This document shows positions 61,121 through 64,000 of a stretch of 64,000 nucleotides of DNA, piece by piece. The stretch comes from Anaerovorax odorimutans DSM 5092 (GTDB lineage: Bacteria; Bacillota; Clostridia; Peptostreptococcales; Anaerovoracaceae). A model generated the notes under the pieces. It saw only the letters and a program-made list of their open reading frames with translations. It was not told the DNA's origin and ran no database searches. The stretch is from contig NZ_AUFC01000008.1 of assembly GCF_000426305.1 (NCBI RefSeq), forward strand, positions 78,937 through 142,936. Direction: 5' to 3'. A program made the position numbers and the translations under genes. The first letter of the stretch is position 1; each line of letters starts with the position of its first letter.

Positions 61121-61342
61121 TTATCTGCCATCGAATTCAGGATTGAAGGCATAGAAATTCTTAGAATCTAAGTTATCTTGTACTACTCGCAGGGCTTCAC
61201 CGAATCTCTGAAAATGTACTACTTCACGTTCTCGTAAAAATCTGATTGGATCAATAACATCAGGATCATCACATAAACGTAATATATTATCATATGTTGT
61301 TCTTGCTTTTTGTTCTGCTGCACCTTTATAAGAACAACTTCT
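61121..61342 (-). pseudogene. cotJC: 3' part of cotJC (spore coat, manganese-catalase family), interrupted at its 5' side
   Basis: The frame encodes AAEQKARTTYDNILRLCDDP, then FLREREVVHFQRFGEALRVV and NLDSKNFYAFNPEFDGR, the last 65 or so residues of CotJC, including the metal-ligand Glu and His of the four-helix bundle. Similarity stops sharply before AAEQK (position about 61321); the preceding seven codons (RSCSYKG) are not CotJC, and then comes the in-frame recombinase stop. About two thirds of the gene is missing. The clean break and neighbouring recombinase point to an insertion, not decay: the remaining codons have no frameshift or stop. CotJC is a mother-cell coat protein. Confidence 0.85.
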
Positions 61343-61345
61343 TTA
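61310..61345. mobile_element. Element/host junction (attachment-site half) in cotJC
   Basis: Host cotJC sequence ends and element sequence begins within ACC/TGCTGC at about 61316-61324 (plus strand). The exact core cannot be set without the other junction; serine recombinases usually use a 2-nt central dinucleotide. The recombinase stop codon lies about 20 nt away. Confidence 0.55.
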
Positions 61346-62896
61346 AAAATTCCAATGTATTTCAATTGGAACATTCCCGGTTAACTTATCTTTTTTTCCA
61401 ACATATATACAATCAATAAGCTGTTCTACTGTTTCTCTGTCTAACTTTTTTAGATTTGTATATTGTTCAATTATCTGTTTTTTATTATCTTCATTTTTTA
61501 GCTTACTATCTACATCATCCAGCTGCATCTGTGTTTCTTTTATTAATTCTATGATCTTATTTTTCTCATCATGGAAATTTTCATAAAATTCAAGATACTG
61601 CTCTGTAGTTATAGTTTTTTTAACTTTATCCATGTATAGCTCTTTTAATACTTGTGTAAGATCTTCCTCCTTACCTTTATAATTTTTCACAGCTCTTTCC
61701 AGCTTTTTTCTTTTATCATGCAAACTACCATTAAAGTCTATATTTTTTTCAATTTCTTCCTTATTCATATAGTTGTCTATCATTTCATTTAGCTGGTATA
61801 AAACAGTTGCTTCTAACCTTTCTACAGAAATAAAAGCACCTACACAAGCATCTTTATGTGCATATTTGGTAGAACATTTTAAATAGCATCTGTCTCTGGT
61901 CTTTGAGCTTTTCATTGTATAACCGCAGTTTAAGCATTTGACCTTTTTAGCAAACAGCCCTATGGTTCCACAGCTAAAAGGCTTAGCTTTCTGTTTAATA
62001 ATATTTTGAACTTTATTCCATAGTTCTCTTTCTATTATAGGTTCATGTGTACCTTCAACCACATACCATTCTTCCTTTGGTCGTGGTTTGTTTTTTTTGG
62101 TTTTATATGAAATACTTCCATATTTACCTTGTACCATATTCCCTATATAAATTTCATTTGAAAGCATATCTGCTACGGTGTAGTACTTCCATAAGGTACT
62201 ATTTTTGGTTCTTGCTTGCTTATATCGTAATCCCTTGAGCCTTTTATATTCTGTAGGATTAGGTATACCTCTTTCATTTAATATTCTTGCAATAGCAGTT
62301 TTACCATAACCTTGAGTAAACAGCAGAAATACTTCTTTGACTATTTCCGCAGCTTCTTCATCAATAATCAAATGACCTTTCTTCTCCGGATCTTTCATAT
62401 ATCCATAAAGTGCAAAGGCACCTATATGTACACCTTTTTTTCTCTTGTCAGTTAACACACTCTTAATATTATCTGACATATCTTCAAGATACCATTCATT
62501 TACTAAGCCATTTATCTGCCTTGATTTTTTATTACCTTTATTTTCAGTATCTGCATTATCAACAACACTGATAAATCTTATATCCCATATAGGAAATAAT
62601 CCATGTATGTACTTTTCCACCAGCTCAAGTTCTCTTGTAAATCTTGATTGTGTTTTGCATAAGATTATATCAAATTTATGTTCCTCGGCATCTGATAATA
62701 TTTTTTTAAATTCCGGTCTGTTTCTGTCAGCACCTGCATAATCATCATCACTATAAATATTGTATATTTCCCAGTGCTTATCTACTGCATACTGTACAAG
62801 CATGGACTTTTGATTTTGTATACTTTCACTGTCATCTGTTTCTGTATGTTTATTTCTGTCTTCTTCCGACAGCCTACAATAAATAGCTACCTTCAT
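61343..62896 (-). CDS. Large serine recombinase (TndX/SpoIVCA-like)
   Basis: The 517-residue recombinase has an N-terminal resolvase domain with catalytic Ser10 in YCRLSEED and the DDYAGADRNRPEFKKILSDA region, a recombinase domain (GYGKTAIARILNERGIPNP, about 195-213), a zinc ribbon (CLNCGYTMKSSKTRDRCYLK plus CVGAF) and a coiled coil near 400-480. These enzymes integrate and excise phages, ICEs and the skin element at specific sites. Its 3' end abuts the truncated cotJC, in the same orientation and reading frame. AGGAGATAAAAAACT precedes the ATG. Confidence 0.95.
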   Translation of the reverse strand: MKVAIYCRLSEEDRNKHTETDDSESIQNQKSMLVQYAVDKHWEIYNIYSDDDYAGADRNRPEFKKILSDAEEHKFDIILCKTQSRFTRELELVEKYIHGLFPIWDIRFISVVDNADTENKGNKKSRQINGLVNEWYLEDMSDNIKSVLTDKRKKGVHIGAFALYGYMKDPEKKGHLIIDEEAAEIVKEVFLLFTQGYGKTAIARILNERGIPNPTEYKRLKGLRYKQARTKNSTLWKYYTVADMLSNEIYIGNMVQGKYGSISYKTKKNKPRPKEEWYVVEGTHEPIIERELWNKVQNIIKQKAKPFSCGTIGLFAKKVKCLNCGYTMKSSKTRDRCYLKCSTKYAHKDACVGAFISVERLEATVLYQLNEMIDNYMNKEEIEKNIDFNGSLHDKRKKLERAVKNYKGKEEDLTQVLKELYMDKVKKTITTEQYLEFYENFHDEKNKIIELIKETQMQLDDVDSKLKNEDNKKQIIEQYTNLKKLDRETVEQLIDCIYVGKKDKLTGNVPIEIHWNF

Positions 62897-62973
62897 AGTT
62901 TTTTATCTCCTATTTCCAGATAAAAAATAAATCTTACAGGAAAAATCATATTATATTTAAGCATGATTTGTAA

Positions 62974-63123
62974 TTATCTTATTTTGCCAAGATTTATGCA
63001 GCTTTTATTTTTTTCGCTTTCTTTAATTACTTGGATCAGTTTTTTATTAAATTCAAGCTTAAACTCATCTTTGCTGCTGCTTTTAAAAACATTATTACAA
63101 ACAACATTTATTTCTTTTGCCAT
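62974..63123 (-). CDS. Small element protein, 49 residues
   Basis: It begins MAKEINVVCNNVFKSSSKDE and ends SCINLGKIR; basic and probably helical. AGGGGG lies 8 nt before the ATG. It precedes the recombinase by 77 nt on the same strand and could be a directionality factor or accessory protein, but I recognise no family. Confidence 0.55.
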   Translation of the reverse strand: MAKEINVVCNNVFKSSSKDEFKLEFNKKLIQVIKESEKNKSCINLGKIR

Positions 63124-63829
63124 ACCAAACACCCCCTAATATGTAATATATTTTTATATACATGTACAATATGTTTAACTAAAGTTAATATTATTTAACT
63201 AAATTTCTTGGCGGCGTTCATGTAAGATGTGCTAGGCTTTCATTTACCCTTTTAAGGCTGCTCTTCATATTCATATTAAATTGTCAAGGTACAACAACCT
63301 TTCAGAGTTGCTATATAGGATATTTCACAATAACCATATAAGCAGAGCTAACTGAATGTCATATATCTTCAAGTAGTTACTGTCTAATTCTTTTAATGTA
63401 TCGTACTAATCTCTAGTATTTTATACGACAATCTGAAGATTAATAAATAAAACTAGATTTCATACAACAAAAAACAGTGTACTGTATTTTCTTTAATACC
63501 TTACACTGCTATTGACTCATTTTAAATAAAACACTATATATTTAATAAACTTAATTACCGCTTTTCGAGTAGCGGTCAGTCCTATAAATTCAAAAAGACT
63601 TCTTTTTTGAAGACCATGCCCCTATGTACCTTTTTTAAAGAATTACTCATGTATAATTTATAGAGTATATATAATAAACATAGCACAAAACCGCTAACGC
63701 GGTGGCATCCGATACGCCAACTAAGTGCGTAAAACCCAACTGTCGATTTACCTGCAGTTTTATTTCCCTAAAAACTCCTTTAAAATAGACGTACGCAGAA
63801 AAGCGAATATATATTGAAGGAGAATAGAC
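63124..63829. other. Non-coding element DNA between the recombinases
   Basis: It holds a TTAACT-TT-AGTTAA palindrome near 63176-63200, a hairpin ACAGTGTA/TACACTG at about 63473-63510, hairpin ACCGCT/AGCGGT at 63557-63576 and the structured leader at 63690-63829. I find no gene. Confidence 0.45.
63690..63829 (+). promoter_or_regulatory. Structured leader of the tyrosine recombinase gene
   Basis: ACCGC-TAAC-GCGGT, GGC...GCC and AACTG...CAGTT can form consecutive hairpins, and GTGCGTA (about 63726) can pair with TACGCA (about 63792). It resembles a structured RNA or a transposon end; no Rfam family is recognised. It is GC-richer than its surroundings. Confidence 0.45.
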
Positions 63830-64000
63830 ATGACAAACGAAGAAATCATCTTAAACGCCAAAGAAGAAATTAAATTACGAGGTTTATCGCCACACACAGA
63901 AGCAGAGTATTTCAGAGTTCTGCACGCATTTCTACGTTATTTCGAAAATCGTCCTATTGAAACAATGGGGGAAACCGAAATACGAGAATTTTTACTATAT
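63830..64000 (+). CDS. Tyrosine recombinase/integrase, N-terminal part (runs off the right edge)
   Basis: The 57 visible residues (MTNEEIILNAKEEIKLRGLS, then PHTEAEYFRVLHAFLRYFEN and GETEIREFLLY) are the SAM-like core-binding domain of XerC/D-type recombinases. Catalytic Arg/His/Tyr residues would lie beyond the window. AAGGAG precedes the ATG. It belongs to the element that splits cotJC or to a second transposon inside it. Confidence 0.85.
   Translation, partial: MTNEEIILNAKEEIKLRGLSPHTEAEYFRVLHAFLRYFENRPIETMGETEIREFLLY

Follow-up and report, generated by a model that had tools for sequence, protein, structure and literature searches.

In the window analysed here, a stretch of 64,000 nucleotides from the genome of Anaerovorax odorimutans DSM 5092, the spore-coat gene cotJC is present in part and breaks off at the gene of a large serine recombinase. 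The cotJC piece occupies 61121..61321 on the minus strand, where a profile match covers codons 134-190 and the reading frame continues to the stop codon; over its roughly 200 bases the frame is open to the stop and without damage. The recombinase gene (R3, 517 aa, 61343..62896 on the minus strand) ends 21 nt from the break, with its stop codon facing the cut, and is preceded by a small conserved gene. Profile match, open frame, and recombinase domains together uphold the first-pass annotation of this DNA in its description of an undamaged 3′ part of cotJC with a large serine recombinase at the break. That annotation had further proposed a single cut, with the N-terminal two thirds of the gene as one fragment to the right of position 64000. 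The rest of cotJC cannot be sought there because position 64000 is the terminal base of contig C6, and the genome as a whole holds it in a different form, as three pieces on two other contigs.

A manganese catalase profile search of the whole genome (54 contigs; handle G000) gave four matches, which represent four pieces of one cotJC spread over contigs C6, C10, and C25, and all four exceed the curated cut-off of PF05067 (Manganese catalase / CotJC). Piece 1 (C10:58752-58853, codons 1-34) lies directly 3′ of cotJA and cotJB, both named by eye; a promoter was looked for 5′ of cotJA, where nothing convincing was seen. Piece 2 (C25:16813-16953, codons 23-69) and piece 3 (C25:22373-22591, codons 65-137), both profile matches, share the single contig C25 with element 2, and the piece in the window is the fourth and last. 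Four pieces imply three cuts, here termed J1, J2, and J3, in place of the one first proposed. The two outcomes named beforehand as contrary to an intervening element, namely that an N-terminal fragment is lacking or that cotJC has a further, intact copy, were sought in this genome and not found, the profile search of its 54 contigs having returned no intact copy.

A separate large serine recombinase stands at each cut, R1 (477 aa) at J1, R2 (519 aa) at J2, and R3 at J3, and all three contain the Resolvase, Recombinase, and Zn-ribbon domains of a class whose members measure about 450-600 aa. In relatives, a further recombinase, R4, is found at a fourth site (J4). Pairwise identity among R1, R2, R3, and R4 is 20-26%, and R3 also matches DUF4368 at 31.1 bits (cut-off 25). 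For 26 junctions from 22 genomes, the two ends were compared unjoined, in the codon register of intact cotJC. In A. odorimutans, a core common to both ends and in the same codon register is present at J1 (CAGTATGGTGGTCCGGAT), J2 (GAAA), and J3 (GCAGCAGA), of the kind that the first-pass annotation had suggested looking for at its one cut; the J3 core lies at 61314..61321 on the minus strand and recurs at the end of piece 3 (C25:22580). A comparison with relatives places their cuts at the same codons. At J1 the bases of codons G30-P32, adjoining E35, are common to all five junctions, at J2 the GA of the E65 codon to 12 of 13 (G397 is shifted), and at J3 GCAGCAGA (codons A134-E136) to five of five. 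Three relatives are cut at J4, near codons 108-110; with the anchor used, two of them are in register and G251 is off by three codons, so that G397 and G251 are the two unclean cases among the 26. Where junctions were fetched, R1 was found in 5/5 J1 genomes, R2 in 12/14 J2 genomes, R3 in 5/5 J3 genomes, and R4 in 3/3 J4 genomes; the J2 exceptions are G397, which has another recombinase, and G066, whose contig ends at the cut. The G397 locus (L133:239-1948, L134), cut near J2 with a shifted core, has a recombinase that falls outside R1-R4 by score and is perhaps a fifth lineage.

The residues E35, E65, H68, E136, and H169 of CotJC, which we take to be the manganese ligands, are invariant in 12/12 intact relatives. 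They are also kept in the split pieces, some of which are present twice in the counts (E35 in 74/74, E65 in 83/83, H68 in 74/75, E136 in 89/92, and H169 in 90/90). The cuts fall at or next to presumed ligand codons, where the DNA of the gene is among its best conserved, and this would account for the repeated choice of cotJC by unrelated recombinases.

Split cotJC genes are common among relatives. A sample of the order (393 genomes) yielded 153 with a match and, by our own reading of the matches, at least 23 with cotJC pieces flanking a site, G066 and G397 being the weaker cases. In a sample of the class (341 genomes), 224 matched, paralogues included, and 73 of these were picked for a second search on account of weak best scores or several matches. 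As judged in the same way, 55 of the 73 are split and, together with G000 and G038, bring the class to at least 57 of 341. Not counted were genomes whose pieces are adjacent or overlapping (G487, G606, G660, G678, G726), those that are one-sided, at a contig edge, missing the middle, or ambiguous (G430, G472, G482, G499, G525, G568, G571, G589, G599, G629, G633, G670), and G557, in which cotJC is not split. Among the at least 57 split genomes, 15 have three or more pieces and two (G000, G577) have four. When 20 named genomes were chosen as carriers of R3, 19 had cotJC pieces flanking J3, and two cuts occur in Lachnospiraceae bacterium 3-2, Blautia sp. An249, Eubacterium plexicaudatum, and Sporomusa ovata, the last from a genus outside Clostridia. 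Named gut bacteria with a cut cotJC include Roseburia faecis and Blautia sp. An249. The spacing between pieces on the same strand reaches about 163 kb (G018:C69), 157 kb (G459:C1), and 118 kb (G572:C7), and the smallest spacing between matching pieces is about 3.3 kb (G130).

The association also emerges when the search begins from the recombinase alone. For R3, named genomes were searched with a query built from five rows, which are possibly among the loci kept, and the best 80 of at least 536 confirmed loci were retained. A cotJC piece is present in 75 of these 80, within 1 kb in 70 and farther off in the same locus in five; two of the five loci that lack one end at a contig edge within 100 bases. 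The agreement of relatives in the codons that are cut, and the presence of cotJC pieces in the loci of 75 of the 80 kept R3 relatives, argue that the cuts are not due to chance. The R3 stop codon faces the cut in 68 of 70 loci, at the C piece in 45 and at the N piece in 23, and elements of the element 3 type can therefore sit in either orientation. For R1, a cotJC piece was found in 22/23 loci (21/22 without the query-building row, G000), and for R4 in 5/6 (2/3 without the query-building rows G170, G251, and G257). The R2 relatives were more dispersed: of 43 matches, 30 loci were examined and 15 have a cotJC piece (13/28 without the query-building rows G000 and G038), including 14 of the best 15, and weaker relatives have other locations, in one case sigK (L254). 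Such weaker relatives adjoin other genes that look split, a glycosyl hydrolase 18 fragment (L251:3066-3506, G674) and sigK (L254:1035-1490, G441). In Holdemanella biformis DSM 3989 (L142), an R3-type recombinase and the small gene before it occur, but neither the locus nor the genome yielded a cotJC match. Among phages, the circular record PQ006094.1, which encodes an R1-like integrase, was inspected for an attachment core and contains none of GGTCC, GGACC, TATTGC, and CCGGA in the 1.1 kb covered, and R4 had no match in phage records. Behind the R2-like integrase of MT835739.1, visual inspection alone suggested a possible attachment site, which was not used.

The small gene before R3 (62974..63123, minus strand) encodes a 49-aa protein that is conserved in front of R3 relatives and is a candidate recombination directionality factor. 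In 85 R3 loci searched, it gave 69 hits up to an E value of 1, mostly directly upstream of the recombinase; against Pfam, no family was above the cut-off. At 21 nt before this gene lies a sigma-E-like promoter (ACATATT, 15 nt, AATATATT; 63145..63174, minus strand) that agrees with 11 of 14 positions of what we take to be the sigma-E consensus. Among 55 non-redundant stretches before the 49-aa gene, which share kinship and so do not give independent counts, 40 reach 11/14, compared with 5.7 in shuffles, and 15 reach 12/14, compared with 0.8; a spacing of 15 is shared by 38 of the 40. The cotJ genes of B. subtilis are reportedly controlled by sigma-E, to go by the title of a cited paper. Before R1 (n=21), R2 at cotJC (n=15), and R4 (n=5), sigma-E-like sites showed little or no excess over shuffles. 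This is compatible with regulated excision at R1 and R2, since in the skin element of C. difficile the recombinase is constitutive and the small directionality factor, which directs excision, is under the control of sigma-E and SpoIIID (PMC5025042).

Element 2 is seen whole and measures about 5.4 kb of C25. On its C10 side, element 1 encodes a phage tail sheath protein and an S24-type repressor adjoining R1. In the expected element 1 on C25 (L006:1507-12735, G000:C25), what appears by eye to be a very long RHS-repeat-like gene is followed by several apparent alternative C-terminal cassettes, one of which was scanned and matched no Pfam family. The end of C25, with its unusual cargo of an acyl-CoA dehydrogenase-rubredoxin fusion and a flavodiiron-type protein, probably belongs to element 3, which would link C25 to C6. 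At 63831-64000 of the window, an open frame resembling a tyrosine recombinase on visual inspection begins at the contig end, and a repeated mobile gene there may account for the assembly break. The same genome also has a cut sigK, whose two pieces, each with SigK as its best NCBIfam match, flank an element of about 3.5 kb (L300:735-4933 = G000:C1:13234-17432) with a 551-aa large serine recombinase that contains the Resolvase, Recombinase, and Zn-ribbon domains.

Taken together, a sporulation gene is split, a recombinase sits at each junction, and a core in register, which would restore the frame, is present at J1-J3, as in elements of the skin type. Three skin-like elements very probably interrupt cotJC and would leave the mother-cell chromosome as a spore forms, rebuilding the gene. 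Excision and its regulation are predicted from the anatomy of the locus, and a sporulation-excised intervening element, as first proposed from the window, is still the best-supported reading, with regulated excision a prediction. R3 would recombine its two core copies, so that element 3 leaves as a circle and piece 3 is joined to piece 4, and R1 and R2 would do likewise at their own sites with their own factors. CotJC, the manganese catalase of the coat, would be made only after all three excisions. Since the mother cell dies, the elements would persist in the spore genome.

Several observations weigh against excision during sporulation. B. subtilis can do without CotJC (PMC12122855), and some genomes (G404, G414, G656, G473) have an intact second copy beside the split one. 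In G046 (C1, 2091087 and 1011465) and G595 (C1, 225389 and 452986), the two pieces lie far apart on opposite strands, an arrangement that simple excision could repair only after a prior inversion. The median dN/dS is 0.24 for 61 pairs of 3′ pieces at J3 as opposed to 0.04 for five intact pairs, in a test where few pairs are unsaturated and the ages of genes and elements are unequal; for these reasons, dN/dS was dropped as proof of selection after insertion. In the closest pair of named loci, dS is 0.24 for cotJC and 0.68 for the recombinases. Recombinases of sister species that are more diverged than cotJC point to separate arrivals, and selection after insertion is not proven by them. The promoter test depends on an assumed consensus and on stretches related to one another, and the extents of elements 1 and 3 are reconstructed, as both run over contig ends.

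Because CotJC is dispensable in B. subtilis, intact second copies occur, and the elements are mobile, the main rival is that cotJC serves phages and other mobile elements as a plain, dispensable attachment site, in which case the gene would be lost for good and the elements would leave only on transfer. The phage tail sheath and S24-type repressor of element 1 and the repeated arrival of elements fit this explanation, as does the dispensability reported for B. subtilis (PMC12122855). However, a gene lost for good is hard to reconcile with 3′ pieces that have no promoter and retain frame and ligands in almost all counted cases, with stacks of as many as three elements in a single gene whose intermediate pieces are undecayed, or with the sigma-E-like promoter before the R3 module, and we consider plain insertion unlikely. 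That same promoter argues against excision that is real and without a link to sporulation, in which a fraction of growing cells would lose the elements and cotJC would be restored there by chance. The yin element of C. botulinum, which is excised at all time points (PMC10747680), offers a precedent for such behaviour, and the lack of a clear sigma-E-like excess before R1, R2, and R4 accords with it, yet this explanation appears even less probable than plain insertion. The distribution of the pieces over three contigs could, finally, suggest that unrelated contigs mimic a cut gene through faulty assembly or binning. Single-contig genomes (G230, G232, G289, G569, and others) show the same cuts, so the split gene is not an artefact of this kind; piece 2, element 2, and piece 3 share contig C25, and the cores match in register, leaving an artefact with a negligible chance of being correct.

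Excision during sporulation, our preferred reading, makes cotJC a widespread target of skin-like elements, with an unusual degree of stacking and of convergence among recombinases, and undescribed as far as could be found. Titles and the beginnings of abstracts gave no description of cotJC as a gene that is cut and rebuilt (preprints and most subscription journals lie outside this scope), and the word cotJ is absent from the available parts of the texts of PMC10747680 and PMC5595907. A bolder view, towards which we lean slightly, is that cotJC is a docking gene of spore formers across and beyond Clostridia, in which at least four unrelated recombinase lineages have settled at fixed codons at or near the manganese ligands, in stacks of up to three, with several independent excisions tied to sigma-E that rebuild the coat catalase gene in every mother cell; on this view the most widespread programmed rearrangement of sporulation may concern an enzyme gene and not a regulator. 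Known programmed excision in sporulation concerns a handful of genes, to which cotJC would add one coat gene, four recombinase families, and fixed sites. The elements also amount to a naturally occurring collection of site-specific recombinases, together with their matched sites and candidates for directionality factors, and open to experiment the question of why mobile elements repeatedly settle in cotJC. Short database entries for "truncated" cotJC may be pieces of one gene.

The genes reported as targets of such elements are sigK (the skin element of B. subtilis and C. difficile), spsM, spoVFB, gerE, and yabG (PMC10747680). Like the cotJC elements, those of the skin type cut a sporulation gene, carry a large serine recombinase at the junction, and share a short core; in some, a small directionality factor is controlled by a mother-cell sigma factor, and the 49-aa gene before R3 is a candidate counterpart. 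The cotJC elements differ in their target, a coat enzyme, in their four recombinase families at four sites, and in the presence of up to three elements in one gene, with excision predicted. A second parallel is found in the heterocyst interruption elements of cyanobacteria, which reside in nifD, hupL, fdxN, and others (PMC4874684). These likewise bear their own recombinases and can occupy different places in one gene, with several elements in 10 of 87 interrupted genes and up to four in nifD (PMC4874684). In contrast to the cotJC elements, they belong to another phylum and another cell type and use both serine and tyrosine recombinases (PMC4874684). In C. difficile, the attachment site of prophage phi027 adjoins a gene of the cotJC type, the paralogue CDR20291_1465 (PMC11222575; PMC12122855). 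In this case, the paralogue is reported downstream of attR and not as a gene that is cut and rebuilt. R3 shares DUF4368 with the TndX-like large serine recombinases, a clade described as mostly multi-targeting (PMC10083194), whereas the R3 relatives in this analysis keep to a single site.
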